A stretch of 50,336 nucleotides of DNA from the IMG/VR virus record IMGVR_UViG_3300021091_000116, positions 1 to 50,336 of that record. One strand, 5' to 3'. A program made the translations under genes and the position numbers. The notes beneath the pieces are model-generated. The model did not search any database and was not told the origin of the DNA. It was given only the letters and a program-made list of their open reading frames with translations. Positions 990 through 27,111 of this stretch are shown one piece after another. This DNA is from a virus. Within the stretch, counting starts at the first letter, position 1, and every line of letters begins with the position of its first letter.

Positions 990-992
990 AAA

Positions 993-1020
993 AAATACCC
1001 CTAGTTTCCTAGAGGTATTT
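993..1020 (-). terminator. Terminator-shaped hairpin with GAAA tetraloop in front of gp13
   Basis: On the minus strand the arms AAATACCTCTAG (1020-1009) and CTAGGGGTATTT (1004-993) pair over 12 bp with one U-G wobble, closing a GAAA tetraloop. Six T follow at 995-990, partly within the arm, and then the gp13 ATG. This is an intrinsic-terminator architecture for read-through transcription leaving the fibre gene, whose stop is at 1041. The 3' arm contains AGGGG, the gp13 Shine-Dalgarno, so the hairpin would also hide the ribosome-binding site. Confidence 0.8.
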
Positions 1021-1023
1021 ATA
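1016..1023 (-). promoter_or_regulatory. T4-type late promoter TATAAATA for gp13-gp14
   Basis: A perfect match to the T4 late-promoter octamer TATAAATA, read on the minus strand in the gap between the fibre stop and gp13. T4 late transcription starts about six bases past the octamer, which would be near 1010. That is inside the 5' arm of the hairpin, so the late message would lack most of that arm and leave the gp13 Shine-Dalgarno open. Confidence 0.75.
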
Positions 1024-1040
1024 AATTATGGGTTACGTTT

Positions 1041-4000
1041 TCACTCGCCCTTTAGTTTTTTGATTTCATCGCGGAGTTCATTGATTTGAACTTGTTGTTC
1101 TTTAATTGCTTCAATTAGGACGGAAACTATGTTTCCATAAGCAACAGACTTGATTCCTTTTTCTCCAACTCTAACTACCTCTGGAATAACTTGTTCAATT
1201 TCTTGAGCAATAACACCTATTTGACGTTCGTTAAAATCAATTCTATCGTAGACTACTCCACGTAGACTCAGAACTTTATTAAGAGCATCTGGAATAGTCT
1301 CAATGTTTGTCTTGAGTCTAATATCTGAGTTTGCAGTAACGTTACCAGAAGCAGTTAATGCACCACCATTTGAAATAGTCACCGGACTTCCAGTGTTGCC
1401 GCCACCATAAAGTCTTGTGTCACCAGAGTTAGCGTTTCCATAACCAATGTACATGCCATCGCGTAAGTTTGAAGAGTTATTGTTTCTCATAACTCTGAAG
1501 TTCACATAATCATCATTATTATCAAGCATACCAAAGGTTACATACTGTGATCTCAGGTTACTTACCGTTGTAGTCGATGTGACTGAGAGAGGTGAAGTTC
1601 CTGTTGCAATTGTTGATGTTAATGCAGTACAAGTAATTGTACCAGCAGTAAAGTTACCAGAACCATCACGAGCAACGATTGTAGATGCAGTGTTTGCTGA
1701 GGTTGCATTAGATGTTACAGTAAATGTAGCCGCGCCAGAGTTATTAAAGGTCGTAGAACCAGAAAGACCAGTTCCTGAGGTATTCAAAGTTAATGTGTTC
1801 GCTAAGTTTCCAGAGAATGTTGTAGCAGTAATAGTACCAGCACTGAAGTTGCCAGATCCATCACGAGCGACAATAAAATTAGCAGTGTTGGCATTAGTAG
1901 CATTGATGCCAAGTGTAACAGCAGCAGAGTTGTTATAAGAGGTTCCAGTTAAGTATGTTGAAGAAATTGTTAATGTGTTTGCAAGAGGTCTTTGCCAAAC
2001 ACCAGCGTCACTCCAAAGTTGTAAATTAGACGCAACGTTCCAAGAACCAGTACCATTATTAGATGCATACCATCTTGCACCACTTCCAGGTTGTAATACG
2101 AACAACTGGTTATTATTATTTCCACTTGGAGCATCATGCACCCATGCACCATTAACATAATACATGTTAGCGGTTAAGAAAACTATTCCATCCCAAGAAA
2201 GAACACCAAACGAAGATTGTGATGGTTTCTTAATAATTAACTGAGAATCATTGTTGTCTGTGGTTCCATTGACAACTAATCCACCACCGCCAATTGCAGA
2301 TCCAGTTCCACCAACAATTGTTGTACCTCTAATTGTTCCAGCATTAAAGTTACCAGAAGCATCACGTCTTACAATAGTATTACCAGTGTTATCTGATGAT
2401 GAAGAAAATCCATTAAGTAATGCAGCGTTTAAATTAGCTACTTCTGTAGTTGATGTAACTGTGAGTGGTGCTGTTCCTGTTCCAATTGTAGAAATTAATC
2501 TTGTACCACTAACGGTTCCTGTAGCAGTAAATACACCCGCACCAGTTAATGTTGCAGCAACAGTTGTTCCACCATACCATCTGAATAGTTCTGAGGTAGT
2601 TGGAACTGAATGCCATAAAGTAGAACCTTCAATACCTGCCGCATAATCTGCGGAAGAAGCACTTAAATTAGTATAATAAACAACTTTAGTACCAACACTT
2701 CTTGTATTAAATGTAGGAGCAGCAACACCATTTGTACCAAATGTAATCCAGTTATTTGTTGAACCGCTAAAGGTTAACTGTGCAGCAGTTGTTGAACCTG
2801 CAGAAGAAAGTTCAATTCTTCCAGTACCGAAGCTACCAGAACCATCACGTCTTACAATTGCGTTTGCCGTATTCGAGGTTGATGAAGCAAATCCATTAAG
2901 TAATGCAGCGTTTAAGTTAGCTACTTCTGTAGTTGATGCAACCGTGAATGGTGCTGTTCCTGTTGCAACTGTTGATGTATATCTGGTTGCCGAAAGGGCT
3001 CCAGTAATAGTTAAACCACCAGAATTAGTCAAGGTGAATACATTTGTTCCACTAGCATTTCTACCGATAAGCTCAGTGGTGAATTGTAGGTAAAGATTGT
3101 TACTATGGAATTGAATTTTGCCTGCTTTCTCACCTGTCCAACTTCCTGTTGTAAAACTTATGTCATGGTTTGCTCCAATCGCAATTGATTGTGTAGTCAA
3201 TAACCCCTGTAACGTTGGAGTTGTAGTCAAAGTATAAGCAGTTCCATTGCCAATCAGTAGAGCACCATTTGAAGGTAATCCAGAAAGTCCTGTGCCGCCT
3301 CTTGCGATTGGAATAGTGCCCTGATGATTGAGAACATCTAAGTAATATGAAGAGTTATTTCCTCCAAGAGTTGCAGCGTCAACATCACCGCCACCAGCAG
3401 CAGTTTTAATTTGAACCGTTCCAGTTCCATCAGCTCCAATCGCAAATGTTGAGGATTTAAATCTAGAAACACCTAAGGTTGAATAAGCATCAACTGTTGG
3501 TACGACTCTATTAAGAGAAATTTGAACATTACCAAAATAAGTATTAATTCCAACTCCATCTGGAGCTAATACAGATGAAGTTGCTAAAACAGCAATTGGT
3601 TGAGTAGTTCCTATACCAACAGAAGTTACAACTTTTTGGAAAGAAGAATCTCCCCTCAAGAAAGTTTCATTATTCGCGGTTCCAGAAGAGGCAAGTCTAC
3701 TAGGACTAATCGTTCCTGAAATAACATTACTAGCATCAATATCACCACCGCCCACAGCTGCCCAGTTAAGTGGAATTTGTCCTGAAGTATTGACAACATT
3801 AGTGAAACTAATGTTTTGTTTTGTGAAAGAAACAATACCACTTCCGTTAGTTCCAAGACCAACTTGGCCAATAATTAATCCACCAATAGAAACAAGAGCA
3901 CTATTTCGACTTTCATGTAATGTAAATGAGTTTGTAGTTGCAGAACCAACAAAATAATAGAATCCTGTTGTAATTCCAGATGTAAGTGTTCCAGCACCAT

Positions 4001-7000
4001 CAGCAGCGTTAACTTGAACTGGATCTCCTTGTGTAAAACCGTGATTTACTAAGACAATTTGATCTGTTTCAGTTCTGAATCCAACTCTTGTAAAAGTATG
4101 TGTTCCAGTTCCAGAACTGTTTAAATCAATCAAAGAAGATGCAGCAACGGCATAATCAGAGTGAACCGAGTAGGAAGAAACTCCAACTTTTTTAACATAG
4201 TAAATCTGATCAGGCACTAATGTTGATACTGGTGTTCCTGATGTTGTATACTGGACAGGATCTCCATTCCCAAATGGTAAGAAATTAGTAGTAATTCTGT
4301 CATTGGCGAAGTCAACATTACCACCAACATCAATAGATGTACCAGTAAAAGTGAAACTAGTTGTGGCGGTGCTTACATTGGTACTGATAGCAACTGCATT
4401 CCTATCTGCAATGTGATCCGGAAGTGCAGTAGTTGGTGTAAATTTCGCTCCATTTTGAAGCTTCACATAAAGTCTGGTTTCAACTGTAGCAATTTGAACC
4501 GTAAAATTAGAACCACCTGTTCTACCACCAATAGGATCGGGATCATTAAGTGTTAAAATATCGTTAACAGCAAAATAACGTCCGCCAGTATTAATTGCAA
4601 CAGATTGGACAGTACCTGCAGCGCTAACTGTAATTGTTCCTGTTATACCAGTACCAATACCACTAGCAGTATCAAATCTTACTCCAGTGTAAATACCAGC
4701 AGAATTATATCCAGAACCACCCGCAAGAGTCTTGAGTGTTAAGGCAACACCTCTTACGAGACCAGTAGTGCCATAACCAACTTGTGGAAACGCAAGTCCT
4801 TGATCAGTAGTTATTCCAGCGGCAGTATTAATACCAATGAGTGGTGGTCTAGTAACTATACCTGTTACAGCCCCTTGATTTAGGACACTTCTTACTGTAT
4901 CTCCATCCTCGAAATTATATACAGTTGAATTATTTAAAATAAAGAACTGCGAATGAGTATCAGATATTAATACATATGGAGACCCTGGTTCAACAACGGT
5001 ATCTCCATTACCCAAATTAACAGAAGGAATTTGGTTATGTAATTGAAGTCTACCAAAATTACTTGTAACCCTGTAGTAATTAGTAACTTTAGGTGGAATT
5101 AGATCGGAGTTAATTTGTCCAATTGCATTTAATTGTACAATTGCATTTGGAACAGCATTTGTAGAAACAGATTTATCAATGAATCCACCAAGTCTGCCAT
5201 TTAAGAATGAACGTATAGCTAACTGAGTTGAAACTCTCTTATTTTGTGGACCACCAAGTTCATTATCACCCAATCCAGCGTCTGTAGAGAATTCTTCTAC
5301 AGCAATACCACCCGAAAGAGTTAGTCGGATAGAATCAAGAGTACCAATAGTTACTGTATTATTGAAGATGATATTACCAGTTCTGTTGAATGCGGTAATA
5401 AAATCACCAATCTTAAAGTCTCCTAGTTCATTTGTGCCAGAAGAATAAACCCTTCCACCTCTTTCACTAACTTGTTCAGATTTCGTAACTGTTTTACCAC
5501 CATTTTGAGGTAAAGCGTTATAGTCAATACCAGATCCAGAATATTCCCAAGTATGGGACGAAGAGTTAATAATAGATGGTCTATGCCAATGCAGTTTATA
5601 AGTTTCTGGAAGGTTCTGAACACCCTGAATAGTCTGGCCAGTCAGAGTGGTATCAATTTTACTATTCGTTGACCAAAAAGTAGTTACTCCAGCAACTGTC
5701 GTTACTGCGACTCCAATAGGAGTTGCACTATGATCAGTGATATTTAATATCGTTGTTTCATTTGTTACTGCAAAGTTTCTCTTAGTTCCAGAAGAAAGTT
5801 CAACAGATACTAACAATTGTCTGGTAGTTTGATTATAAGTAACAGCAATACCAAGAGCAGTTCCACCGATAACTGTTTGTGTAATTTCTCTACCAGCAAC
5901 AAAGTTTGCTGTACTACCCACCCCAGCAAGAGTTACATACTGATAATCATTGTGTCTGTCAATAACAGAGCTAGCAAAAAACTCAAAAGTATTTTTTTGG
6001 AACGTATGAAGACCAGTAGAAGCAGAAGTTAAATCTACAATTCTAAGTAAACTATCATCCTCAGCAAGTTGGAAGCTGTTAGCATCAATATATTTTACAT
6101 AATATTGGTTTTGGTTAACCAATCCTCCGATAACTCTGTTGGGAATTACTCCCTCATCTCCAAAATAAACTACACTATCTTGATTAGCGAATGGATGTAA
6201 AGAAATATTAAAAGTATTTGCACTAATATCTACTACTCCACTTGCAGTAACCGCAGCTCCAATAAACTCTTTGGTAACTGGAGATGCTTTAAAGTTTGAA
6301 GTGACATCTTGATTTGCATTATTAAAGAATCTTGCAACATATAAATCTTGCTCGGATCTACCCAAACCAACTACTTTCAGAGTAGTTAAGCCACCAGAAG
6401 TACCAGTTGCAGCAATTCTTCCTCTATCAAATATAAATGAAGCCGGACTAAATCCTGTTGATCTAAGCGCGAACAAACCAAAGTTAGTTGCAGAGTTAGT
6501 AATGGACAGATATCCACCAGACTGAGTTAGAGATCCATAGCGACAGAAGATTTGGAAACAAGATACAACCTGTGCATATCCATCATTAATAGTTCTCCAA
6601 CCAATACCACCAAAAGAAACCATGGTAAATGCCGCAGCAACCATAGATTTACCTTGTTCTGGTTGTTCTAAGTCGGCATTAAGTTCCACTTCCTGTTTAA
6701 CGAGTGGAACGTTTGGCGAATTAACTTTGTTTCCATCTACTAAAATACCATTTGCACCTAGGAAAGAAAGAATAGAACAGTTTTGAATATATGGAGATCT
6801 TACGATAAAAGGTTTATCTCCTTTTGTAGCATATCCAGTTCTAGATGTAAGCTGATCATCCGGATCATCAAATGCAACAGCGTAATCAAAAGTACTTAGT
6901 GGAACACCCGCGGCATCAACTGAGTCTTTCATTGCAAAACCAGTTACATAAACACCGTTTCTTACTCTGAATAAATCTTTACCTGCGTTCAGTGGTCTAA

Positions 7001-10000
7001 TAATTGTATTTCTTAGGTTGTCTCCAACTACTGCAACGTCATCATAGAGTAAAATTGGATTATCTTCAATATAATCACCAGCCTCAACAAAGATACAGAC
7101 TGGTTTTGATTTTGTCAATGGATTACTTAATTGTGGCGCGGCGGTAGTGCCAAATCCAACAATATTAGTCATAATGCCAACATAGTTGACAATCGCAGTT
7201 CTTACATCGGCACAATCAGTTAAACCAATATTTGTTGACGCAATACCTACTAGACTTCCAGATAATAGCGCAGTTGTAAGAATACCAACAAGACTATCAA
7301 TTGTAGCTCTTGTAGTTGCACAGATATTTGGATTTTTATTAGTTCCGCCAATTGAGACATCACCTATAACTGTAAGATCTTGATAATTCAGCCAATTGGT
7401 AACCGCTTGTTTTGCATATTTACCCAAACTTTGGAAAGCATATACAGAAGCAGCTTCTTCTCCAAGAACTCCATTAGATATTAGTGCTCCAGCACCATCA
7501 AAATACTTTTTAGTTGCATATAAAGTATGTTGATTCGTTCCGAAAGAAACATCTTGTGCAATAGCATCTATAATATATCCAAGATCTCTTGCACACTTAC
7601 GACCACCAACGACTGTTGTAGATCCAACTCCTACAGAACTTATTCCGATTCCAAGAGTACTAATCCCTGAAAGATTTCTTACATTATATGTAGAATTAAC
7701 AAGGAAATAACCATAGTTGGTTGTAGTTCCAATACCTGCAGTGCTTCCTGCAGCAACAACTGTAGTAACAATTCCAGCAAGAGATGTAATTGTTGATCTA
7801 ACGTTTGCACAGGACTCAGGACTTAAGTTTGAACCAACTTTACCAGCTACTGATAGAGATCCAGTAGTAGAGTTAGCATAAGTCACTGTAGTTGTAGTGC
7901 AATTTGTCACTACGTAATTTCCGTTGTATCCCGCTGGAGTTACTCCAGTAACAGAAATTACTTGATTGACTTGGAATGGAGCAGTTTCTTGAGCATCAAA
8001 TGTTAATGTTGCTGCATCACCAAATGTTATTGTTTCTCCGTTTGTATTTGCAGTATTTGGGTGAGAAAGATTTGCAAAAGTAGCACCAAGTCCAGTAATA
8101 TAAGCACCTGATCCAATTCCAGTTCCAAAAACTGGCATTCCCAATACAAGTCCAGTATTATTTGCAATACTTACATATCCTTGACCTGTAGTGCCTCCTG
8201 TAGAGGTTTTAGTGGTTGAAACTGTTCCAGTTGTTGCAGTAATTGTAAGATAAGGATCTGCAGTAATTGTTAAATCTCTAGTGTTTAACTGATTGGTTAC
8301 AGCCAATCTCATTAAATCTCTAGCAGTTGTAAATACATAATTTGATTGAGCTTCTTCTCCAAGAAGTCCATTAGTTGTTGGTTGACCGACATTATTAAAA
8401 TAGAATCCAGCAAATCTTCTACTGTAATTATTACCTCCAGTAAATACGTCCGTCTTAACTGCATCTACAAAAAATCCAGTATCTCTAGCACACTTCCAAA
8501 TTCCTGCAGTGGTTCCAAATCCAATTACACTCAGATTAAAGTTTCCAAGATTTAGTGCAGGAAGTCCACTAGTATTTCCAGCACCAACTACGGCAGTAAT
8601 GACTCCAACAAGAGAAGTAATATTATTTTGCACATCAGTACATGCTGTAGTATCAGAAACTCCTACATTTCCACCACCTCCTCCAAAAACTGTTGGTCCA
8701 GGAGTAGCATTTAAATTTTTATTGCTGAGCTGGTTCGTAATAGCTCTTCGCATTTCGATTCCAGCTTGTTGGAATCCGTAAATTGATTGTTGTTCTTCTC
8801 CAACAAGACCGGTTGATAGAGCTGCTCCAACACTATCAAAGTAGAAGGCAGCAAATGTTCTTGCATAATTATTACCCCCGGTAAATACATCTGTTGAAAC
8901 GGCATCAACAAAGTATCCAAGATCTCTCTGACATTTAGCTGAAGATATTCCAGAAGACCAAAAAGTAGGATATTCAGTATTAATAGCCGTTAATGCAGTA
9001 GCAACGATCTCACTCTTATTGAGTTGTATTAATTGATATGCACGATAGTATCTAGAATCTTTAGTTGTAGAAGTAACACCCGGACCTGGTACATAGAATC
9101 CGGTAGGGAATCCAACAGCAAGAGAAGCTATTGATTTATCAACAATTTCTTGTTTGTTGATTTCAATTAATTTATGAGCATAATAATATCTTGATCTTGT
9201 AGTAGTTTCAGCATCTCCAGGGAAGAAGAATGTTGATCCTACTCCAACTGCAACAGAAGCAAGAGATTTATCAATGATCTCCTGTCTATTTCCTACGATA
9301 AGATTTCTAGCATCTTTAGATGTATGGAAATAATTACCATTTGAATTTGCTGGATCCTGTATAAGAGTAAAATCAAATGTTTGATTTACACTAGTTTGAT
9401 ATAGTGTAGGTGGTGACTGGTTATTGATTATATATTGTCCAATAAATTTTAGATAATCAAGAGCAAAAATGAAAGGTACCTCTTCACCGGCGTAAGTTCC
9501 TTGATTATAAAAATCAAGCGAAGTAGATCTAGATTTAGAATTTCCTCCAAATCTTACATCATAAGTCAGAGCTTTTACAGCAGATCCGATTCCAGCTTTC
9601 CAAGTATTTTCGTTAAAATCTGGGAATATCGTAGCAATTCCAATATTTTCAAAGTTAAATTTTACATATGCAATTACTTCTTCTTTGATAAATTGTTCGT
9701 TTACCTCAAGTAAATCACCAGCATCGAGATATCTTTGACCAGGATAAAGGAAACTATCAAATGATGCTAATTGAGCCGCACGTTTGATAGTTTTAACTGG
9801 TAGAGCTCTACCATCAAAAGTATCGTCACCGTTTTCAGCAGAAACATAATATCTACTTTCAAATAATCCAGCACCATTTGTTGTAAATCCTAAAGTTCCA
9901 TCTGGAAGTAATGCTAAAAGTTGTCCTGCAGTTCCTAACTTTGGAGGTAAAGTTAATGTATAATTTGAAGAAATACCAGAATTAGAAAGTTGAATCTTTA

Positions 10001-12710
10001 CAGATTTGTCCTGACTACTTGCAGTATTAACACCGACAAGAGATAATGTACTTACACCTACATTATTAAATGTAGAAACTCCAGAATAATTAATATTAGT
10101 TCCAGAAAGAGTTGTAACAAATCCAGCAATAACTCTCAAACTTTCTATACCAGAAACTGAAGAATTTTCTCCATTAATGGTTATAGTTCCAGATCCAACA
10201 GAAAGAATGCCAGTAATCCTAGCATCACCGGAAACAATCAAATCAGTGTCACCAATTCCTATAGTAACATTTCCAAAAGTAGAGAGACCGGTATAGTTAA
10301 TATCAGATCCATTTAGATAAGTAATGAATCCAACTGGAGATTCTAATCTTTGAACCGTTCCCACTCCAGTTACGTCAAAGTATGTTGCAAATCCAGTATT
10401 AACTCTGGAAAGATTGGTGTTAGATGTTTCAATATTTAAATCGGTAGCGATACCAGAAGAAATATATGCAATATCTAATCTTGCACTAGAAATTCCTGCA
10501 GTAGTTACGATACCACTTGTAGCAAAGAAGTTGTCTACTCTAGCGCTTGTAATTCCTACGGTTGTTACAATACCGCTTGCAAGATATAAATTATCGATAT
10601 ATCCGAAAGAAATTCCTGCAGTAGTTACAATACCTGTAGTTACAAAAAGATCATCTACTCTACCACTAGAGATTCCTGCGGTTGTTACAATACCTGTAGT
10701 TACAAAAAGATCATCTACTCTACCACTAGAGATTCCTGCAGTGGTTACGATACCAGAAGTTGCAAAGAAATTATCGACTCTAGCGCTTGTGATTCCTGCA
10801 GTGGTTACGATACCAGAAGTTGCAAAGAAATTATCGACTCTAGCGCTTGTAATTCCTACAGTTGTTAGAATACCAGTGTTAATATATACATTGTCTATTG
10901 ATGCAGTTGAAATTCCTGCAGTAGTTACGATACCAGAAGTTGCAAAGAAATTATCTACTCTAGCGCTTGTGATTCCTGCAGTGGTTACGATACCAGAGTT
11001 GATGTAACCATTATTAGCTGATAAAGTTGTGGTATAAAGATTAGTTATAATACCTGAAGCTACATAAGCATTTGTAATGTTAAAACTAGTAGCGATACCA
11101 CCATTGATATTAGCAGTATCAATGTACTCTGTAGTTGCAAATAGAGTGGTTACAATACCTGTAGTTACAAAAAGATCATCTACTCTACCACTAGAAATTC
11201 CTGCAGTAGTTACGATACCTGTAGTTACAAAAAGATCATCTACTCTACCACTAGAAATTCCTGCAGTAGTTACAATACCAGAAGTTGCAAAGAAATCATC
11301 TACTCTAGCACTAGAAATCCCTGCAGTGGTTACGATACCAGAGTTGATGTAACCATTATTAGCTGATAAAGTTGTGGTATAAAGATTAGTTATAATACCT
11401 GAAGCTACATAAGCATTTGTAATGTTAAAACTAGTAGCGATACCACCATTAATATTTGCAGTATCAATATACTCTGTAGTTGCAAATAAGGTTGTAACAA
11501 TACCAGAAGTTGCAAAGAAATCATCTACTCTAGCACTTGAAATTCCTGCAGTGGTTACGATACCAGAAGTTGCGAAGAAGTTGTCTACTCTAGCACTAGA
11601 AATCCCTGCAGTGGTTACGATACCAGAAGTTGCAAAGAAATCATCTACTCTAGCACTAGAAATCCCTGCAGTGGTTATAATTCCTGTGTTTATTCTTGAA
11701 GTATTTGCATTTGATTCACTGGTTACGTTTAATCTAGAAACCGACTCTTCTTGAACATCTAGGACATCAATGAATGCTTTACCGACAATGGGATCAGTGA
11801 AAGTAAAACTTGTTGATATGCTTAAATTTGAAAAATAATAATCATTAAGTTGAGTAAATTCAAAATCTCTAGTTCCAGTTACATTATTAGTTTCATTTAT
11901 TGTTATTTCGCCAACTCCAATACTTTCAATATTGGCGGCCGCAGTTAATCCACTAGAAGGATCAAATATTATATCATATCCCACTGCCAAATTAGAAGTA
12001 TCAATTCCAGTAATTATTGTACCAGCTGAAGAAACTGTTCCAGATACAGTTAAAACTCCAACAGTACCGGTTGTATTTTGAGATAGAGTTACAAATCCAG
12101 TACCTAGAGAAAGGATGGTTGTTCCTGCACCAATCCCAAAACCACTAACTCCATATCCGACAGCTAAAACGGATGTATCAATGCCCGCAGGGGATGACAA
12201 TTCATTTCCATTAGAAGTAACTAGATAAGCAGATGTTGATATTTGGGCATCTGTGGTAAATTGACTTATAATGATAGAACCGGTTTCAATACCTACCACT
12301 GTTGTTCCAACAGAAACATATGTGGAATTAGTAACAGAATATCCTACGCGAATATCATTCGTAGAAATTCCAATAATTAGAACGTCTGGAGTTGAACTTA
12401 TAATACCGGTCCTTTCAACAGGTTGGTTGTAAGCTATAGATAAACTTCTGGCATTTACATTACCAGCAAATACAGCATCTCCAATTACGTCTAAAGCAAC
12501 TGCAGTTCCACTAGTTCCAATTCCAATTGAAACTTTATTAATTAAATTTTGAGTCGAAGCTGCACCAACTAGATAATGACCGCCAGCAGTAGATCCATCA
12601 TGGACCACTGCGACATCTAGATTAGTATCAATTGTTAACTCTCCAACTGCCCCCGTAAATACTAAATGTTCTGCTGTGGTTCCTCTTCTAAGCTGTACCT
12701 GCTTGGTCAT
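1041..12710 (-). CDS. Giant tail fibre with C-terminal S74 intramolecular chaperone (3889 aa)
   Basis: A distal fibre or adhesin, probably for host recognition. Residues 1-50 (MTKQVQLRRGTTAEHLVFTG, then GELTIDT and AVVHDG) resemble the N-terminal domain of Mtd-type tail fibres. Residues about 340-757 are about twenty 20-residue units of the type 'ISSARVDDFFATSGIVTTAG'. At about 955-980 'GDDTFDGRALPVKTIKRAA' looks like the start of a right-handed beta-helix. This is interrupted at about 983-1860 by Cys-containing helical cassettes and resumes with 'VEAGDYIEDNPILLYDDV'. Further beta modules follow. 'EVANLNAALLNGF' fibre repeats lie near residues 3250-3700. Residues 3795-3889 form a Peptidase_S74 domain beginning SDIRLKTNIETIPDAL with 'GVIAQEIEQVIPEV' and a C-terminal coiled coil. 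In this family the domain trimerises the fibre and cleaves itself before the Ser, here residue 3795. The Shine-Dalgarno before ATG 12710 is weak. Confidence 0.85.
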   Translation of the reverse strand: MTKQVQLRRGTTAEHLVFTGAVGELTIDTNLDVAVVHDGSTAGGHYLVGAASTQNLINKVSIGIGTSGTAVALDVIGDAVFAGNVNARSLSIAYNQPVERTGIISSTPDVLIIGISTNDIRVGYSVTNSTYVSVGTTVVGIETGSIIISQFTTDAQISTSAYLVTSNGNELSSPAGIDTSVLAVGYGVSGFGIGAGTTILSLGTGFVTLSQNTTGTVGVLTVSGTVSSAGTIITGIDTSNLAVGYDIIFDPSSGLTAAANIESIGVGEITINETNNVTGTRDFEFTQLNDYYFSNLSISTSFTFTDPIVGKAFIDVLDVQEESVSRLNVTSESNANTSRINTGIITTAGISSARVDDFFATSGIVTTAGISSARVDNFFATSGIVTTAGISSARVDDFFATSGIVTTLFATTEYIDTANINGGIATSFNITNAYVASGIITNLYTTTLSANNGYINSGIVTTAGISSARVDDFFATSGIVTTAGISSGRVDDLFVTTGIVTTAGISSGRVDDLFVTTGIVTTLFATTEYIDTANINGGIATSFNITNAYVASGIITNLYTTTLSANNGYINSGIVTTAGITSARVDNFFATSGIVTTAGISTASIDNVYINTGILTTVGITSARVDNFFATSGIVTTAGITSARVDNFFATSGIVTTAGISSGRVDDLFVTTGIVTTAGISSGRVDDLFVTTGIVTTAGISFGYIDNLYLASGIVTTVGITSARVDNFFATSGIVTTAGISSARLDIAYISSGIATDLNIETSNTNLSRVNTGFATYFDVTGVGTVQRLESPVGFITYLNGSDINYTGLSTFGNVTIGIGDTDLIVSGDARITGILSVGSGTITINGENSSVSGIESLRVIAGFVTTLSGTNINYSGVSTFNNVGVSTLSLVGVNTASSQDKSVKIQLSNSGISSNYTLTLPPKLGTAGQLLALLPDGTLGFTTNGAGLFESRYYVSAENGDDTFDGRALPVKTIKRAAQLASFDSFLYPGQRYLDAGDLLEVNEQFIKEEVIAYVKFNFENIGIATIFPDFNENTWKAGIGSAVKALTYDVRFGGNSKSRSTSLDFYNQGTYAGEEVPFIFALDYLKFIGQYIINNQSPPTLYQTSVNQTFDFTLIQDPANSNGNYFHTSKDARNLIVGNRQEIIDKSLASVAVGVGSTFFFPGDAETTTRSRYYYAHKLIEINKQEIVDKSIASLAVGFPTGFYVPGPGVTSTTKDSRYYRAYQLIQLNKSEIVATALTAINTEYPTFWSSGISSAKCQRDLGYFVDAVSTDVFTGGNNYARTFAAFYFDSVGAALSTGLVGEEQQSIYGFQQAGIEMRRAITNQLSNKNLNATPGPTVFGGGGGNVGVSDTTACTDVQNNITSLVGVITAVVGAGNTSGLPALNLGNFNLSVIGFGTTAGIWKCARDTGFFVDAVKTDVFTGGNNYSRRFAGFYFNNVGQPTTNGLLGEEAQSNYVFTTARDLMRLAVTNQLNTRDLTITADPYLTITATTGTVSTTKTSTGGTTGQGYVSIANNTGLVLGMPVFGTGIGSGAYITGLGATFANLSHPNTANTNGETITFGDAATLTFDAQETAPFQVNQVISVTGVTPAGYNGNYVVTNCTTTTVTYANSTTGSLSVAGKVGSNLSPESCANVRSTITSLAGIVTTVVAAGSTAGIGTTTNYGYFLVNSTYNVRNLSGISTLGIGISSVGVGSTTVVGGRKCARDLGYIIDAIAQDVSFGTNQHTLYATKKYFDGAGALISNGVLGEEAASVYAFQSLGKYAKQAVTNWLNYQDLTVIGDVSIGGTNKNPNICATTRATIDSLVGILTTALLSGSLVGIASTNIGLTDCADVRTAIVNYVGIMTNIVGFGTTAAPQLSNPLTKSKPVCIFVEAGDYIEDNPILLYDDVAVVGDNLRNTIIRPLNAGKDLFRVRNGVYVTGFAMKDSVDAAGVPLSTFDYAVAFDDPDDQLTSRTGYATKGDKPFIVRSPYIQNCSILSFLGANGILVDGNKVNSPNVPLVKQEVELNADLEQPEQGKSMVAAAFTMVSFGGIGWRTINDGYAQVVSCFQIFCRYGSLTQSGGYLSITNSATNFGLFALRSTGFSPASFIFDRGRIAATGTSGGLTTLKVVGLGRSEQDLYVARFFNNANQDVTSNFKASPVTKEFIGAAVTASGVVDISANTFNISLHPFANQDSVVYFGDEGVIPNRVIGGLVNQNQYYVKYIDANSFQLAEDDSLLRIVDLTSASTGLHTFQKNTFEFFASSVIDRHNDYQYVTLAGVGSTANFVAGREITQTVIGGTALGIAVTYNQTTRQLLVSVELSSGTKRNFAVTNETTILNITDHSATPIGVAVTTVAGVTTFWSTNSKIDTTLTGQTIQGVQNLPETYKLHWHRPSIINSSSHTWEYSGSGIDYNALPQNGGKTVTKSEQVSERGGRVYSSGTNELGDFKIGDFITAFNRTGNIIFNNTVTIGTLDSIRLTLSGGIAVEEFSTDAGLGDNELGGPQNKRVSTQLAIRSFLNGRLGGFIDKSVSTNAVPNAIVQLNAIGQINSDLIPPKVTNYYRVTSNFGRLQLHNQIPSVNLGNGDTVVEPGSPYVLISDTHSQFFILNNSTVYNFEDGDTVRSVLNQGAVTGIVTRPPLIGINTAAGITTDQGLAFPQVGYGTTGLVRGVALTLKTLAGGSGYNSAGIYTGVRFDTASGIGTGITGTITVSAAGTVQSVAINTGGRYFAVNDILTLNDPDPIGGRTGGSNFTVQIATVETRLYVKLQNGAKFTPTTALPDHIADRNAVAISTNVSTATTSFTFTGTSIDVGGNVDFANDRITTNFLPFGNGDPVQYTTSGTPVSTLVPDQIYYVKKVGVSSYSVHSDYAVAASSLIDLNSSGTGTHTFTRVGFRTETDQIVLVNHGFTQGDPVQVNAADGAGTLTSGITTGFYYFVGSATTNSFTLHESRNSALVSIGGLIIGQVGLGTNGSGIVSFTKQNISFTNVVNTSGQIPLNWAAVGGGDIDASNVISGTISPSRLASSGTANNETFLRGDSSFQKVVTSVGIGTTQPIAVLATSSVLAPDGVGINTYFGNVQISLNRVVPTVDAYSTLGVSRFKSSTFAIGADGTGTVQIKTAAGGGDVDAATLGGNNSSYYLDVLNHQGTIPIARGGTGLSGLPSNGALLIGNGTAYTLTTTPTLQGLLTTQSIAIGANHDISFTTGSWTGEKAGKIQFHSNNLYLQFTTELIGRNASGTNVFTLTNSGGLTITGALSATRYTSTVATGTAPFTVASTTEVANLNAALLNGFASSTSNTANAIVRRDGSGSFGTGRIELSSAGSTTAAQLTFSGSTNNWITFGTNGVAAPTFNTRSVGTKVVYYTNLSASSADYAAGIEGSTLWHSVPTTSELFRWYGGTTVAATLTGAGVFTATGTVSGTRLISTIGTGTAPLTVTSTTEVANLNAALLNGFSSSSDNTGNTIVRRDASGNFNAGTIRGTTIVGGTGSAIGGGGLVVNGTTDNNDSQLIIKKPSQSSFGVLSWDGIVFLTANMYYVNGAWVHDAPSGNNNNQLFVLQPGSGARWYASNNGTGSWNVASNLQLWSDAGVWQRPLANTLTISSTYLTGTSYNNSAAVTLGINATNANTANFIVARDGSGNFSAGTITATTFSGNLANTLTLNTSGTGLSGSTTFNNSGAATFTVTSNATSANTASTIVARDGSGNFTAGTITCTALTSTIATGTSPLSVTSTTTVSNLRSQYVTFGMLDNNDDYVNFRVMRNNNSSNLRDGMYIGYGNANSGDTRLYGGGNTGSPVTISNGGALTASGNVTANSDIRLKTNIETIPDALNKVLSLRGVVYDRIDFNERQIGVIAQEIEQVIPEVVRVGEKGIKSVAYGNIVSVLIEAIKEQQVQINELRDEIKKLKGE
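10420..11700 (-). repeat. 60-nt tandem repeat array inside the fibre gene
   Basis: Head-to-tail units with a 60-bp period (20 codons), read on the minus strand as variants of 'GIVTTAGISSARVDDFFATS'. Neighbouring units at 10631-10690 and 10691-10750 are almost base-identical, as are units around 11150-11270. A longer direct repeat of about 163 bp occurs at 10981-11143 and again at 11326-11488, exactly 345 bp apart. It encodes 'YIDTANINGGIATSFNITNA' and flanking residues. The period is a multiple of three, so gain or loss of units keeps the frame. Confidence 0.85.
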
Positions 12711-17200: not shown

Positions 17201-17238
17201 AAAAAAGAAGGAGGATCGCCATAAAAAAGCAACCCTCC
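17201..17238 (-). terminator. Intrinsic terminator downstream of the 335-aa gene
   Basis: On the minus strand GGAGGGTTGC (17238-17229) pairs with GCGATCCTCC (17219-17210) in a 10-bp stem with two G-U wobbles and a 9-base loop. TTCTTTTTT follows at 17209-17201. The stem-plus-T-tract form and the location just after the 335-aa gene (stop at 17275) and before the 1472-aa gene fit a Rho-independent terminator. Confidence 0.7.
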
Positions 17239-17274
17239 CACCAATAACTTATTATATTTTTTTATTAAAATAAA

Positions 17275-19608: not shown

Positions 19609-22600
19609 TTATATTGATGCTATTGCTCTCAAATCTCTTATTAAAGGAACAAAAGAAGAATTAGTTCCAGACATCAGAATTTTTATTTGGAATCCTTTAA
19701 ATTGCGGTAAGAATGAAGCTGTAAACTCATAGGATCTGAAATCTTCTTCTGAAGAAGCGGACAATACTTTTTTGTCTGGTAATCCATTATTATCTTTTGC
19801 ATTTTTAACTTGTCCATTATCATCCAAATTATTATACCCAGGGAAAAGTTCCCAAAGTGGTGCTGAATTTGAATCACCTCTAAACAATCTATAACAAACT
19901 CTGATGTCACTACTTGAATGTCTAAGTGCATCAAAATACACCTTTAAATTATCTGCTGCCTTTTCAAGACGAACAATTTTACTTAAGTAAGTAGCAGCAG
20001 TTGGATCATCAGTTAGAGAATTAACTCTGCCATCAGTTGCGTAATTTTTAACTTTTGAATTGATTCTATTTGCAATAGTAATTACATTCGTTCTATCCAA
20101 ATCTATCATTGGAGACACTTTAGTATCTTGACTAGTTAATTCTAATTCTATTGTAAAAGACTTATTTCCAGGAAAATCTTGTAAATATGTATTTTCATTG
20201 ATTTGTGATGCTACCAATCTTGGACTGGAGAGTTCATTAGTTTTTACTAAAGAAATATCTTCAAACCCCTGATCGACAAAAGAAATTAAGTTACTGTCGG
20301 GAGTTGACGCAGAGAATGTTCGTGCTTTCGCCGTAATGTTAGTTTTCTCAGGTAACATTATTTGGAAATTAGTTAAAAATGAATTAAAAGGTATATTTTG
20401 TGTTGCTTTTGGTCCTTTTGGAGATCCCATTAAAGGAACAATATCATAAGATCCGCAAGATTTATCTGCCTTGAAGAATAATTCTGGGAACCCGTTTGCG
20501 TTTCCTGTTGTTCTATCTGTTCCTCCAGTATTCATACCAACCTTAATATAATAGAAATCCAAATCATTTGGATAAATTGTTTGATTTGCAGCTGATAAAT
20601 TATGAGTTTTATTGATCCTTCTCAAAGAAACTCCATTAAGCTCATACTTGTAAACAGAAATACCGCTAGAGTAAGATCCACCAATTGTTCCGTCTACTTT
20701 TCTAGATATACCAGTTAGAGAATTAGTAGAAGTTACAACTCCAGTATATTTAATAACTTCAGTATCAATCAAAATATATCCAGGGTTCAAAGAAGATACC
20801 GGAATATTTTCAAAACTAGTAAAGATTCCAACAGAATTGACTATAATTGAATCAGTTGAAGATGCAGTATATGAGGAATTCAATGTTTGCGGTTTCAGAT
20901 CTGATTCTAATCCAGAAAGAACAACCCTATCATTCGTAGCATACATTCCATGGTTATAATGACTTACTTTAAAATGAAGTCCATCTGAGATAGTTTTGAT
21001 ATACGTAACATTGGCATTTGATAAAGAGACTGTTCCAGCAGTGCCAACATAGAATAAGATATCAGTTGAGTTTTGTTGTGGAGTTCCTTGAACTCTGTCA
21101 ATAAGTAAAGAATTGAATGCAGAGATTACCCCAATATTATTTGGTATAGAAAGAATCAGGTTGTTGCCCAAATTATCAGTTTGGCTATAATCAACTTCTA
21201 AAGCATCTCCATAAACATATCCAGTGCCACCAACAGATACGGTAGCTGCAATTGCAACTCCACCTTGTACACTCAGATTGACTTTTGCGCCGACACCGCT
21301 GCCAGTTAACGCTATTACGTTCACATTTGAATAAGTTTTAAATCCAGTCGTAAATGCAGATCCAGGAGAAGTTACTGATAACGTGCTGCCAATACCAATT
21401 GATCCGACGACACTTTTCAAATTACCCCTGAAGTTTCCGTTATTGTTTTGAAGTATTGTAACTCCACTAGTAAGATCAGTAACTTCAGAAGTAGTTAAAC
21501 TCTTTCCAAGTCCAACTATTAATGATCTGGAAATACAATCAAGTGGATTTGGCTTTAATGTAACTATCTGTCTGTTACCAACATCTAAATCTGGATTATA
21601 GAATCTAACAGTAGAAGATCCCTTATAAAAATCTGCTCTATATATTGTTAATTTAAGGTCTTCAAGTTGACTTGGATCCCATGTGGCACCATTTTGAGAT
21701 TTAAACAAAGATCCTAATAAAGGTTGTTGTGATACAATAATTTTTTCAGACTCTACTTTATTTACAGTAGTTACATCTTCTTCACCCATTCTAGAAATAA
21801 AGACGTTATATTCGTCAGACGCCGAAAGAAGAACTACTGCATATGACTTACCAGTTTCACAATAAACTGGTGAAGGAAAAGTAAATGTAGTAGCAACAGA
21901 TCCCGAATCTGAGGTTTTAACATCAACTGGATCTAAGATTATTTCGCCAAAAGGCAAAATTTCTGTAGTGGGCAAACCAGTTTGCATAGTTCTGATTTGT
22001 GCTGTAATTGGTAATCCTTTAGTATCTTTTGTCTTAAAGAAGACATCAACTTTGGTTATAAAAATTCCAGTTTCGTCAGGAACTTCAAAAGATTGTGCAA
22101 GTGGATCCACCCAACGCTGTTGTGTAATACTTCTATTCTTAAATGAAGTACTAGCAACAGTTTCCGTTTTTTCAGAAGTTAAAGTTCTTTCATCAGTTTT
22201 AGCAATTTGTTCAACTTTTGCATTTCTAATTCTTAAAGTTGTTTCTTCTGTATTATTAAGGGTTCCGGAAGAAACAAAATTAGTTGATGCAGTGCTGTCT
22301 GTAGCTCCAGATATTGTAGTGTTAATAGAACTAGTTGTAAGTGTAAATGTTTTTGTTCCGGTTTCAAAAGAAGGTGATGAAGGTAATGTTGCGTTAGGAA
22401 TAAACAATGATCCTATTAATGTTCCGGCAGAATCAGTTACTAATCTGACTTTTGTTACCTTTGCAATCGCACCACTTGTCTCACCTTTTAATTGCATATC
22501 GCTAATAATAAAACCATAATATCCAGCCGAGGATTGCAGTTCTAAAGATGCAGTGTCTAAATTCAATATTGTTGACGTGCTAGAATATGAAGAAGGTATT

Positions 22601-25600
22601 GATTCAGTAGGTATATAAGGATTTTCAGTATATACCTGGGTAGGACTGTTGTAGGGTCCATATTTATGATTTGGTTTTGCCAATCTAGCTCTTACAGCAG
22701 TAGTTCCAGAAGTTCCTTGTATTGCTTCTCCAACAGCAAATGTACCACTAACCATCTGCACTTCAACTAATTTTGGTGTTGCGTATTTATTCATATCAAC
22801 ATTATCAAAAAATGCATACATCTGAGTTTTTGGTTTCAGTCTTTTTGCAATAAACTCAACATTCCTTGATCTCATAGTATGAATAACTTCAGTAGACACT
22901 ACCTTAGTTCCCAAATTCACATAATCAAATTGTTCGCTTACTTTATATTGAATTCCCTGCCTAGATTGTTTAGTAGTTGTTAAAGTAGTTACATTAGCAA
23001 AATCAGTATATTGATCTTGATAATCAATCTTTGTCCATTCTGGAATACCTCTACCTTTTTGATATCCGCCTCTCCAACTAGTTCTACCAGTTTCTTTAGT
23101 TCCAATATAAATGGAACCCATATTTTTTCTACCTGTTTCTACGGTTCCAGTCCAAGTAGTTTCCCAAGCTCCCCACGTAATAGGTGATAATCCAGTGTTT
23201 GTATCAACCCCTAATTGTTGAATAGTTGTATTATAGGTTCCTTCCTGGTCAACTGTTTTTTTGGTTCCCTTTGTTTCAATCCAAGTATCAGTAGCAGGAT
23301 TTAATTCAATTGCACCAATCCAATTAACAACATTAAAAGGATTTACGTTTACAATTCTAGTTGCAAACTTATTTTGCAACCATTGTTTATCTGTATATTT
23401 TAAACAGACTACATCTCCAACTTTTACTGTATTTGGATTTCCCAAGTCTTTAACAAATCTCAAATCTGCATCTGGGTTAGATGTATTTGCTGCGCCAACT
23501 ACAGCTTCAGATCCAAGTAAAAGGTCAATCGAAGTTGTGTAGTGTTGTGGTCTCAAATGTCCTTCTAGGGTATCAATACTGCATTTATGATTTGGATTTC
23601 CTAAAGAACCTGCAAAATCTGATTTAAAATTATCAACAAAGAATCCGGTCTTAAATCTATCTAATCCGGTTTGACCATCCTTTAAAGTTAAATTTTTAGT
23701 GTCACTCTCTAATAAAGATAACGAAGTGTAGTATTCTACATTTTTCAGCCTATCCTCAAGTCTTGCAATGTCTTGCATTCTATAACGTTTATGCGTAGAT
23801 AATTGAACTTTTACATCGTTAGAATTGTAAACATATGGAGGCATTAAAATTGTAGCCACTTCTAATGCTGTTTCAATATCTTTAGGATTTTGTGGCTTTA
23901 ATGATGGCACACCACTACTTACAAAAAATTCTCCAAATTTATTTAAATATAGTTTATCGATTCTTCCCAGATAATAATCATAAGAAACTATGATATTTTT
24001 ATCCTTTGCTATATTAAATTGGCTTGAGTTTGTTGATGCTGAGTATGTTCTTGCCGCATATTCAAATGGAGAATAAATATTGGTTGCTTGATCATATGGT
24101 GAAACTCTGGGCCTTACATCAATAATATCATTTGCTCTGTAGGTATCAATATAAGGCAAATCATTAGAAAATCTTTCTTTATCATACGAAGTTACTGTTA
24201 CAAAATCACCAGTATCTGCTGGATCAATTACGTAGTTATGATATATAATTTTTAATTTTTTAGTTGGGGCTATGATTCCCTCTTTTCTAGTGATATATGC
24301 ATAATTTGCAATTTCACGTTCTTGTCCATAATCAATAATAAAGTCATTGATTATATTTCTATCTCCCTCAATAAATTTGACAACATTAGCGGTTAAATTT
24401 GATTCAACAAAAATAATTTTTTCATCTGCAACAAAAGAATTTTCATTGACATAAACGATTTCGATGGTATTTGATCCATTATTTTCAACTAATACAGCCA
24501 TAGCTTGACTAGATTCACCATATATCATTTCTCCTCGTTTAGAATTGAGAATATTACCATTCAAATTAGATAATTCTAATTTTGGAAGGTCCGCTTGATT
24601 TGAATCTGAAGATTCAAATATACCCATAACAAAACTAACATCTGCAACTTGTAATGAAATATTTTTATCTTGGACTCTAGTTCCATAAATTGAACTATAA
24701 GTTAATCCATCGGCCAAAGTTGTACTTGTTATTCCGGATGATGAATTTGCTGATCTAGTAATATTTAAAACTGTTGATCTATTATAGAATTTTTTTCTTG
24801 ATTTTAAACCTGTTTTTTTCAAAGTTGCAGTTAATGTTGCTGGCCCATTTGCAGTTAATTGAACTAGGTTTATAGTTCTTCCAGCACTAATTGAAAATTT
24901 AGAACTAGTTAATGGTTCATTAGTTCCATTAGAATAAACTAAAGTATAGTCTTCCTCATCAAATGGAACTAATGTAACATCTGTTCCAGATTCTAAAGTA
25001 GCAGTAAGTGCATTTGAAGATACCGTTACGTCATAAGATTTTCTAAATATAATTTCACCACTTGTTAAATCAACCGACGCAATATCCGTATTTTCGTATT
25101 CAGTAAATAAAAATGATTCTTTAGTATTAGTTAATACTGGGATAACCTTAAATACATCTGTAGAAGTTATAGAAGAAATTGATAGAGTTCCATCACAAAC
25201 TCCACTAACTGAAGTTGTGGGTTTAACAATTATTCTTTTGCCAGCAGTATTAACTTCAGAAACTATATTGTATGTTGGAACTGTTTGACCGGATTTAGTA
25301 TAAGAGATAATATCTCCGGTTTTGATACCTATTCCAAAAATAGAAGTAGAAGCTGAAATCGTACTAATTCCAGATGAGGCAGTAGAAATACTAAAAGTTG
25401 TTCCCTGCGGGGATAAAAGTAATGGTTGACTTAATAACAAATCTCCAGTAAAAGAAGTTCCATCAAGACTTACAACTTGTCTAACATCTGATAATGAATA
25501 ATCTCGTATATTAGTTACAGTTCTTGAAATTTCTACTTCATTAACCAATAATGATTCATCTTGTAAAAAAGTTCCAGATACTTGATATAAAATAAGTTGA

Positions 25601-27111
25601 TCGGTATTTGTTGCTACTTTAGCTAAATATCCAGAAGCAGAACTATTTTTACCTTCAATGAACGCAGGAAGATTTAGAGTAATTGTAGAATTGATAGTTA
25701 AATAGGTATAAGTTTGGACATCATATACCGATCCTTCAAAAATAGTCGTAGCATTTGAGTATTGTGTATTTTTTAACTTCAAATCATAAACCCTTGCAAT
25801 TCCAACTTCAATTCCAGACGCAGTTCCGGGTGTAGATGTTCGTTGAGAATATAGTTTAACTTGACTAGTCGCTCCAAATCCAACTTTTACTCCACCAAAA
25901 ACATTATTAATCTCAAGTTGATTCCCTAAACTAAAAGGTAAAGTGATATTTTTAACTGATGCTGTGGTTCTTGGTTTTGCTAAATCAAAATTAATAGTAT
26001 TTAAAGTTTCTACTTCATAGCCTCTGACATATGCTTTTCCTGGAGATATTTGAAGGGTTAATAAGTCATCTGACGGAGTGTTTCCTTGTTTAGTTAGTTG
26101 ATTATATTGGAAAACTCCATTATTACCTATTTTATTATTTAAAGATTCTTTAGCTATAACCGAATATGGTTTTACATAATAATCACCGGATTCATCATAT
26201 GTTCTTCTAGCTAATTCATCCGTTATAAGATTTGGATCTTCTTTTTTTGTAAATTTTTTTAAGATGCCGTTTTCAACTCGCATCAATTCAACAAAATTTT
26301 CATCATTAAAATCATCTAAAGATTTTTTACCCAATGTTGCTGTAATTTTTAATCTATCCGCTCCTGGGGCTGCAAAATTTGAAAATCCCCTAGCATTGTC
26401 ATAAAGATCTGGATTTGATTGAGACGCTACAGAAAGTTCTTCTAAAATATTTAAACCAATTCGATACGAAGGTAAATTTGAATATTGATCAAGAATTACT
26501 GTTTGTGCATAAACATCAATAAAAAAACCTCTAATAAAATAAACACCTTGATCAATTTTTGCAGCCGAACCAGTTTCTACCGATCCTGTTACTATTGATG
26601 TTGCAAATGATGAGTTTTCAAGTATAACTGCCGTCGTATAGTCAATATTTTCTAAAGAAATTAAATTTTCTCCATCAACAAATGTGTTTGATGAAAAATT
26701 AGTATCACTTGAACTTTGATATTTTATATAAAGAGTATAATTATCATTTTCAGATTGAGTATTTGTAATATAACTTTCTACTTTCGCAATTACCCCACTA
26801 GTTTCTCCTTTTATTAATTTTCCAACTAACTTGTCGATATAAAAAGAAACTGAAATTCCTAAGTGAGTTGGATCTATTTGGACACAAGAATATTCGGGAT
26901 CATACGCAATACTCCCAGGTATGACTACAGACCCTTCTTTAAAAAAATGTTTGCCAAATTTTTCAATTTGATTTTGCAGTATTGATTGTGACGTTGTTAA
27001 TTCTCTGGCCTGTATTGGAGTTCCGGGTTTGAATAATACTCTTTGATAACCCTTAGTTACATCAAAATCATCAAAGTATGGCGATGCATTTAAATTAGTA
27101 TTTTGTGCCAT
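19609..27111 (-). CDS. Giant baseplate structural protein with DUF4815 (2500 aa), gp9/gp10 position
   Basis: The N-terminus (MAQNTNLNASPYFDDFDVTK, then YQRVLFKPGTPIQARELTTS and ILQNQIEKFGKHFFKEGSVV) matches the DUF4815 family of cyanophage tail and baseplate proteins. It probably covers the first several hundred residues, including 'NVEYYTSLSLLESDTKNLTL' near the middle of the chain. At about residues 1665-1775, 'WVDPLAQSFEVPDETGIFIT' and 'KVDVFFKTKDTKGLPITAQI' form a beta domain often seen at the end of such proteins. After that come a 'G.GY' beta module and a C-terminal domain ending 'GFQIKILMSGTNSSFVPLIR'. It lies directly after gp8, where T4 has genes 9 and 10, so a baseplate-to-fibre connector role is inferred from position. 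Start ATG 27111; GGAG lies 12 bases upstream, inside the gp8 end. Confidence 0.8.
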   Translation of the reverse strand: MAQNTNLNASPYFDDFDVTKGYQRVLFKPGTPIQARELTTSQSILQNQIEKFGKHFFKEGSVVIPGSIAYDPEYSCVQIDPTHLGISVSFYIDKLVGKLIKGETSGVIAKVESYITNTQSENDNYTLYIKYQSSSDTNFSSNTFVDGENLISLENIDYTTAVILENSSFATSIVTGSVETGSAAKIDQGVYFIRGFFIDVYAQTVILDQYSNLPSYRIGLNILEELSVASQSNPDLYDNARGFSNFAAPGADRLKITATLGKKSLDDFNDENFVELMRVENGILKKFTKKEDPNLITDELARRTYDESGDYYVKPYSVIAKESLNNKIGNNGVFQYNQLTKQGNTPSDDLLTLQISPGKAYVRGYEVETLNTINFDLAKPRTTASVKNITLPFSLGNQLEINNVFGGVKVGFGATSQVKLYSQRTSTPGTASGIEVGIARVYDLKLKNTQYSNATTIFEGSVYDVQTYTYLTINSTITLNLPAFIEGKNSSASGYLAKVATNTDQLILYQVSGTFLQDESLLVNEVEISRTVTNIRDYSLSDVRQVVSLDGTSFTGDLLLSQPLLLSPQGTTFSISTASSGISTISASTSIFGIGIKTGDIISYTKSGQTVPTYNIVSEVNTAGKRIIVKPTTSVSGVCDGTLSISSITSTDVFKVIPVLTNTKESFLFTEYENTDIASVDLTSGEIIFRKSYDVTVSSNALTATLESGTDVTLVPFDEEDYTLVYSNGTNEPLTSSKFSISAGRTINLVQLTANGPATLTATLKKTGLKSRKKFYNRSTVLNITRSANSSSGITSTTLADGLTYSSIYGTRVQDKNISLQVADVSFVMGIFESSDSNQADLPKLELSNLNGNILNSKRGEMIYGESSQAMAVLVENNGSNTIEIVYVNENSFVADEKIIFVESNLTANVVKFIEGDRNIINDFIIDYGQEREIANYAYITRKEGIIAPTKKLKIIYHNYVIDPADTGDFVTVTSYDKERFSNDLPYIDTYRANDIIDVRPRVSPYDQATNIYSPFEYAARTYSASTNSSQFNIAKDKNIIVSYDYYLGRIDKLYLNKFGEFFVSSGVPSLKPQNPKDIETALEVATILMPPYVYNSNDVKVQLSTHKRYRMQDIARLEDRLKNVEYYTSLSLLESDTKNLTLKDGQTGLDRFKTGFFVDNFKSDFAGSLGNPNHKCSIDTLEGHLRPQHYTTSIDLLLGSEAVVGAANTSNPDADLRFVKDLGNPNTVKVGDVVCLKYTDKQWLQNKFATRIVNVNPFNVVNWIGAIELNPATDTWIETKGTKKTVDQEGTYNTTIQQLGVDTNTGLSPITWGAWETTWTGTVETGRKNMGSIYIGTKETGRTSWRGGYQKGRGIPEWTKIDYQDQYTDFANVTTLTTTKQSRQGIQYKVSEQFDYVNLGTKVVSTEVIHTMRSRNVEFIAKRLKPKTQMYAFFDNVDMNKYATPKLVEVQMVSGTFAVGEAIQGTSGTTAVRARLAKPNHKYGPYNSPTQVYTENPYIPTESIPSSYSSTSTILNLDTASLELQSSAGYYGFIISDMQLKGETSGAIAKVTKVRLVTDSAGTLIGSLFIPNATLPSSPSFETGTKTFTLTTSSINTTISGATDSTASTNFVSSGTLNNTEETTLRIRNAKVEQIAKTDERTLTSEKTETVASTSFKNRSITQQRWVDPLAQSFEVPDETGIFITKVDVFFKTKDTKGLPITAQIRTMQTGLPTTEILPFGEIILDPVDVKTSDSGSVATTFTFPSPVYCETGKSYAVVLLSASDEYNVFISRMGEEDVTTVNKVESEKIIVSQQPLLGSLFKSQNGATWDPSQLEDLKLTIYRADFYKGSSTVRFYNPDLDVGNRQIVTLKPNPLDCISRSLIVGLGKSLTTSEVTDLTSGVTILQNNNGNFRGNLKSVVGSIGIGSTLSVTSPGSAFTTGFKTYSNVNVIALTGSGVGAKVNLSVQGGVAIAATVSVGGTGYVYGDALEVDYSQTDNLGNNLILSIPNNIGVISAFNSLLIDRVQGTPQQNSTDILFYVGTAGTVSLSNANVTYIKTISDGLHFKVSHYNHGMYATNDRVVLSGLESDLKPQTLNSSYTASSTDSIIVNSVGIFTSFENIPVSSLNPGYILIDTEVIKYTGVVTSTNSLTGISRKVDGTIGGSYSSGISVYKYELNGVSLRRINKTHNLSAANQTIYPNDLDFYYIKVGMNTGGTDRTTGNANGFPELFFKADKSCGSYDIVPLMGSPKGPKATQNIPFNSFLTNFQIMLPEKTNITAKARTFSASTPDSNLISFVDQGFEDISLVKTNELSSPRLVASQINENTYLQDFPGNKSFTIELELTSQDTKVSPMIDLDRTNVITIANRINSKVKNYATDGRVNSLTDDPTAATYLSKIVRLEKAADNLKVYFDALRHSSSDIRVCYRLFRGDSNSAPLWELFPGYNNLDDNGQVKNAKDNNGLPDKKVLSASSEEDFRSYEFTASFLPQFKGFQIKILMSGTNSSFVPLIRDLRAIASI

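Follow-up and report, generated by a model that had tools for sequence, protein, structure and literature searches.

A 34-base element that directly precedes the gene for the neck protein gp13 probably acts as a boundary switch, in which a T4-type late promoter is nested within a transcription terminator that also masks the gp13 ribosome-binding site. The element lies at positions 990-1023, on the minus strand, of a 50,336-nt stretch of DNA from a marine T4-like phage (hereafter, the window). RNA polymerase arriving from the upstream tail-fibre gene would transcribe the whole hairpin, and the resulting read-through RNA would either terminate in the U-tract (~988-992) or keep the gp13 ribosome-binding site masked. 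Polymerase associated with the phage late sigma factor, on the other hand, would start at ~1010, within the hairpin's 5' arm, and because the late RNA would be without that arm, it would not terminate and its Shine-Dalgarno sequence would be exposed, with gp13 and the following genes expressed late. By virtue of such nesting, the terminator would be seen by upstream transcripts only. No description of a nested late promoter and terminator was found in the open-licence literature searched.

Layout of the 34-base element

The minus strand from 1023 to 987 reads TATAAATA CCTCTAG GAAA CTAGGGGTATTTTTT ATG. The element, TATAAATACCTCTAGGAAACTAGGGGTATTTTTT, adjoins the gp13 ATG directly and is situated inside a 51-base gap between the stop codon of the fibre gene and the start of gp13. 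The features are as follows, all on the minus strand:

1041-12710, minus: tail-fibre gene, 3889 aa, upstream of and co-directional with gp13; read-through from it would meet the element
1016-1023, minus: T4-type late promoter octamer TATAAATA, at -13 to -6 relative to a predicted +1 at A1010 (register from PMC1524935)
1009-1020, minus: hairpin 5' arm AAATACCTCTAG, whose first 5 bases are the last 5 of the octamer; mostly missing from RNA started at 1010
1005-1008, minus: loop GAAA (GNRA-type); AAGA, GACA and others in relatives
993-1004, minus: hairpin 3' arm CTAGGGGTATTT
998-1002, minus: gp13 Shine-Dalgarno AGGGG, within the 3' arm, 8 nt before the ATG
990-995, minus: T6 tract, terminator-like, running straight into the ATG; unlisted by a generic terminator scan
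987-989, minus: gp13 ATG
156-989, minus: gp13-like neck protein / head-tail adaptor Ad2, 277 aa (phrog_211, 3.6e-47)

The initial annotation had described a 12-bp stem with a GAAA loop, followed by six T and the ATG of gp13, and this anatomy is borne out on the minus strand. The stem consists of 11 Watson-Crick pairs and one G.U pair, and the octamer's end accounts for only five of the twelve 5'-arm bases, a refinement of the claim that its last bases form that arm. The late-promoter octamer of T4-like phages is positioned at -13 to -6 (PMC1524935), in agreement with a start at 1010. The minimum free energy of the hairpin is -15.7 kcal/mol (z = -5.4), a stability reached by 0 of 200 shuffles, and when the octamer was held fixed and the next 26 nt were shuffled, 0 of 3000 sequences reached -15, excluding a chance origin of the hairpin. 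Among the 12 NATAAATA words in the window, only the one at the element coincides with a strong hairpin. The octamer word itself occurs 3 times in the window versus 9 expected and shows no enrichment; its significance derives from position and conservation, not from word frequency.

Of the six U residues, three pair with the AAA of the octamer and only three are free, which is why the generic terminator scan leaves the window site out; our own scan scores the copy of the element in Synechococcus phage S-SCSM2R as terminator-like. No sigma-70-like match is listed at 990-1040, the promoter word there being the late octamer. On the plus strand, the antisense hairpin has a poor tail (ATAAATTATG).

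Elsewhere on the minus strand of the window, a strong terminator-like hairpin (17206-17242, -20.1 kcal/mol) with a T-rich tail lies between two co-directional genes. The same strand carries very large genes at 1041-12710, 19609-27111 and 28737-44495 (3889, 2500 and 5252 aa, respectively), the first of which is full of near-identical repeats, for instance GIVTTAGISSARVDDFFATS.

Predicted masking and comparison with T4 hairpins

In silico folding predicts that the Shine-Dalgarno AGGGG is fully paired in read-through RNA (probability unpaired 0.00), and that it is ~0.60 unpaired in RNA starting at 1008-1010. These predictions agree with the earlier suggestions that the 3' arm contains the gp13 Shine-Dalgarno, that read-through RNA would hide the ribosome-binding site, and that late RNA from ~1010 would be translatable. 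A start at 1012 gives a value of only 0.24, and the predicted outcome is thus sensitive to one or two bases. The late leader is also predicted to keep partial pairing of the Shine-Dalgarno with gp13 codons 4-7. In the segment 960-1004 (minus strand), the leader ACTAGGGGT can pair with these codons (ACCATCTAGT); the codons are conserved in close relatives, and the leader-codon pairing is no more stable than that of shuffles.

Masking of this type has precedents in phage T4, where hairpins before e, 49 and I-TevI block translation of early or middle RNA and are missing from late RNA (PMC3014915), and the same hairpin masking applies to I-TevI and segB (PMC2988022). Hairpins with embedded late promoters have likewise been reported for soc and for mobE of phage Aeh1 (PMC3014915, PMC2988022). 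In an unbiased scan of T4, in which every NATAAATA before a reading frame was scored for Shine-Dalgarno masking that relaxes in late RNA, gene e, gene 49, I-TevI and segB were all among the top sites. The window element resembles these four in having the octamer in the 5' arm, the Shine-Dalgarno in the 3' arm, the ATG immediately after, and the +1 inside the hairpin. The leader of T4 e, TATAAATACC..GGAGGTATTATG (also written TATAAATACCTTC..GGAGGTATTATG), shares the CC/GG and TATT core with the window element, and the analogy to gene e drawn in the initial annotation is exact at the sequence level. The masking half of the device would, by this analogy, work like the hairpins of T4 e, 49, I-TevI and segB.

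What departs from T4 is the termination half. The T4 hairpins have no U-tract, whereas in the window-type elements a tract of U6-U8 runs into the AUG, and this U-tract is the new addition that makes the hairpin terminator-like; none of the T4 late-promoter words overlaps a terminator-like hairpin. The window element further differs from the T4 cases in its 4-nt GAAA loop and in preceding the gene for a neck protein, and, since both flanking genes are virion genes, a boundary between early and late expression is harder to discern than in T4. The merger of promoter, terminator and ribosome-binding site had been called unusually compact. Its added part is the U-tract, absent from the T4 versions; the placement of octamer and Shine-Dalgarno in one stem is already present in T4 e, 49, I-TevI and segB, and the layout recurs in many viral contigs and several gene classes.

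Recurrence in viral contigs and loop-type terminators

A pattern consisting of the octamer plus CC (ATAAATACC), 8-20 nt, GGTATTT, 0-7 nt and ATG was scanned against 2.9 million viral contigs. Among the matches listed, 92 of 130 distinct octamer sites have at least 3 further inner pairs, where shuffling predicts 6.9, and at 80 of the 92 stemmed sites the ATG opens a frame of 50 aa or more; the contigs counted share ancestry and are phylogenetically non-independent, and the viral sets are query-biased. A control with a permuted octamer, run over the whole collection, yielded 93 stretches with 72 distinct sites, of which 15 were stemmed and 6 of those 15 had reading frames. The stems differ between elements yet stay paired, as evidenced by an inner-arm pairing of 0.865 in native elements versus 0.575 when arms were swapped between elements (maximum 0.651 in 2000). 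In addition, GGTATTT is followed by TT in 38 of the 49 true elements, as against 5 of the 25 sites lacking a stem, an enrichment that holds although extension of the stem into the octamer would demand AT at this position.

Among the downstream genes are those for two families of gp13, for Holliday junction resolvases (both RusA-like and RuvC-like), for homing endonucleases, for an endolysin and for a tail tube cap. By function, the marine set of endolysin, resolvases and homing endonucleases is similar to the T4 set of lysozyme, resolvase and homing endonucleases, a match that supports, by analogy, a common logic. Cyanophage late promoters have been published, and a homologue of g55 is found in all cyanophages sequenced to date, according to a review (PMC2984593). 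In S-SCSM2R, AATAAATATAGCTACTTTTAGAGAGCTATATG (178520-178549; L606) precedes a gene annotated as SegE, and represents a late-promoter hairpin that would mask the start of this homing endonuclease gene, as in T4 segB.

A looser pattern lacking CC/GG was set aside since it returned mostly chance sites (11 of 112 with at least 5 inner pairs versus ~1 expected). Likewise, a scan of bacterial genomes recovered mostly ordinary hairpins and chance ATGs, 17 of 61 sites among the matches listed opening frames of 50 aa or longer; raw site counts do not discriminate phage from bacterium, but reading frames do. A chromosomal leader of similar anatomy, the conserved hairpin ATAAATACCTTCATT..GGAGGTATTTTTT(TT)ATG, was observed in Colwellia and related contigs (L469, L467, L509, L534, L553), where the protein that follows, starting MAISFEKAFGIHPQ, looks like flagellar FlgB.

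In other cyanophages, the late promoter before gp13 is nested by a different arrangement. The gp13 leader of Sf-FR1 reads TCCCTACCTG-ATAAATA-CAGGTAGGGA-TTTTTT, and that of S-WAM2 and S-H9-1 reads CCCTTCTTCCTAAATAGGTAAGAAGGGATTTTTT; each is a canonical terminator with a 10-15 bp stem and T6 that carries the late promoter in its loop. Among relatives fetched with the two gp13 genes (Sf-FR1 and S-WAM2 types), the loop-type leader is kept in 137 of 157, with changes compensated. Both the loop-type leaders and the window element nest a late promoter in a terminator before gp13. In the loop-type leaders, however, the octamer occupies the loop instead of the 5' arm, the predicted +1 is in the 3' arm, and the start codon is farther away, with the Sf-FR1- and S-WAM2-type hairpins standing 11-17 nt from it. 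In S-BM3, a terminator is followed by a separate late promoter.

Overlaps of a late-promoter word with a terminator number 6 in six genomes (~0.6 expected), all just before genes: 3 before gp13, 1 before a RusA-like resolvase after nrdB (Sf-FR1), and the remainder, in S-WAM2 and S-BM3, before hypothetical genes located after metabolic ones (thioredoxin or ferredoxin, mazG). In these layouts the predicted +1 is inside the hairpin, with the 5' arm wholly or mostly upstream of it, and the promoter's own RNA would therefore lack the terminator. A terminator hairpin with a late-promoter word, differing in sequence each time, was noted in S-SCSM2R (L605, 148611-148642), S-WAM2 (L817, 143172) and S-BM3 (L818, 68094), in each case at a boundary of metabolic genes (mazG, thioredoxin or ferredoxin) with a hypothetical gene; an NMNAT/cytidyltransferase gene adjoins in two of them.

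Given these nested layouts elsewhere, the window element is read as a nested late promoter and terminator that additionally masks a ribosome-binding site. The alternative that comes closest, although it is unlikely, is that of a pure mask of the T4 gene e type, whereby the hairpin only hides the Shine-Dalgarno, the T-run is an incidental spacer, and no termination occurs. Its appeal is that the anatomy is identical to that of the T4 e, 49, I-TevI and segB hairpins, which mask without a U-tract (PMC3014915, PMC2988022), and that the generic scan passes over the window site. However, an incidental spacer is at odds with the enrichment of the U-tract in true elements and with the loop-type gp13 leaders, which keep stem, T6 and promoter even though the hairpin stands apart from the start codon, and T4 itself has no late-promoter word in a terminator-like hairpin. 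Somewhat less probable again is the converse, namely that terminator and late promoter serve only to insulate transcription, the Shine-Dalgarno falling in the stem as a by-product of compactness. The loop-type leaders, which nest alike at a distance from the start codon, and the co-directional upstream genes are in keeping with this explanation; against it, the start codon of window-type elements is 0-6 nt past the U-tract and the sole Shine-Dalgarno lies in the stem before many unrelated genes, and the T4 counterparts are masks. Relative to both of these alternatives, the dual switch is preferred. Termination is probably its primary function at gp13, because relatives keep the terminator and the late promoter while all else changes.

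Conservation before gp13 and its implications

The initial annotation had proposed aligning relatives for compensatory changes, and such an alignment reveals a stem that is kept and changes that are compensated: one inner position occurs as C-G, U-G and U-A, and the next as C-G, A-U, G-U and U-G. The element persists in close relatives (L003, L006, L008, L011, L013), including at loci with a different sequence upstream, and the cultured S-SCSM2R has the same element with two extra T, being the only match other than chance-level ones when the 41-nt element was compared with phages by blastn. Among gp13 proteins that are 50-60% identical, the elements are 93% identical, a value partly imposed by the search pattern, as compared with 67% for the first 300 coding bases and 59% for the 60 upstream bases, the latter near background for such alignments. 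Conservation of the stem with gp13 thus holds for close relatives but not throughout: in L010, L015, L016 and L020 a late promoter before gp13 is kept without a good hairpin (the stem of L010 is degenerate), and the element is absent before the more distant gp13 genes examined.

Of the 48 gp13 loci that bear the element, 47 have a co-directional upstream gene, which in most cases ends 35-64 nt away, and L003 has a small divergent frame upstream. In the S-SSM7-like clade, the upstream gene is divergent, and a CTAAATA-type late-promoter-like word is present with no hairpin. This pattern of orientation fits a device acting on read-through, the contrast being that of one clade.

Near-identical cores before gp13 proteins of ~50% identity, with unrelated sequence upstream, together with the fact that the element marks the breakpoint with the upstream gene, might instead reflect a mobile regulatory cassette, kept by recombination rather than for its function as a switch. 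The differing stems with compensatory changes, and the differing layouts at gp13, argue for structural selection, however, making such a cassette improbable. The comparison that suggests itself is with PeSL, composite motifs in which T4-type phages join a promoter to a terminator (Arbiol 2010, Comeau 2014) and which, as cited by others, also combine an intergenic promoter with a stem-loop at boundaries where the upstream gene changes. PeSL, at least by name, concern early promoters, whereas the window promoter is late and within the hairpin, and the early sigma-70 promoter beside a stem-loop that would be expected of PeSL was not found at the window site. Finally, an ordinary intrinsic terminator of the fibre gene, with a coincidental octamer and gp13 transcribed from elsewhere, would accord with the lack of enrichment of TATAAATA words in this AT-rich window but is very improbable in light of the permuted-octamer control, the retention of the octamer next to differing upstream genes, the nesting of the promoter by other means in relatives, and the published cyanophage late promoters (PMC2984593).

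The recurring layouts thus point to a common design of a late promoter nested in a terminator, such that read-through RNA would stop or stay untranslated and late RNA would escape. Whether this is a general feature of marine T4-like phages is an evenly balanced question: the proposal is that intrinsic terminators recurrently house a late promoter in their loop or 5' arm and are blind to that promoter's own transcripts, with different layouts at gp13, and that such devices also mark boundaries such as nrdB/resolvase and mazG-ferredoxin/hypothetical gene.

If the switch operates as proposed, late transcription would be shielded from upstream read-through at no cost in sequence, and the start site of the promoter would decide whether an RNA contains its own terminator. 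A mechanism known from a handful of T4 genes would thereby extend to genes for virion assembly and to many phages of the sea, for which S-SCSM2R, on Synechococcus WH7803, represents a cultured isolate with the same hairpin. The nested arrangement would also serve as a signature by which operon boundaries could be searched for in phages known only from sequence.
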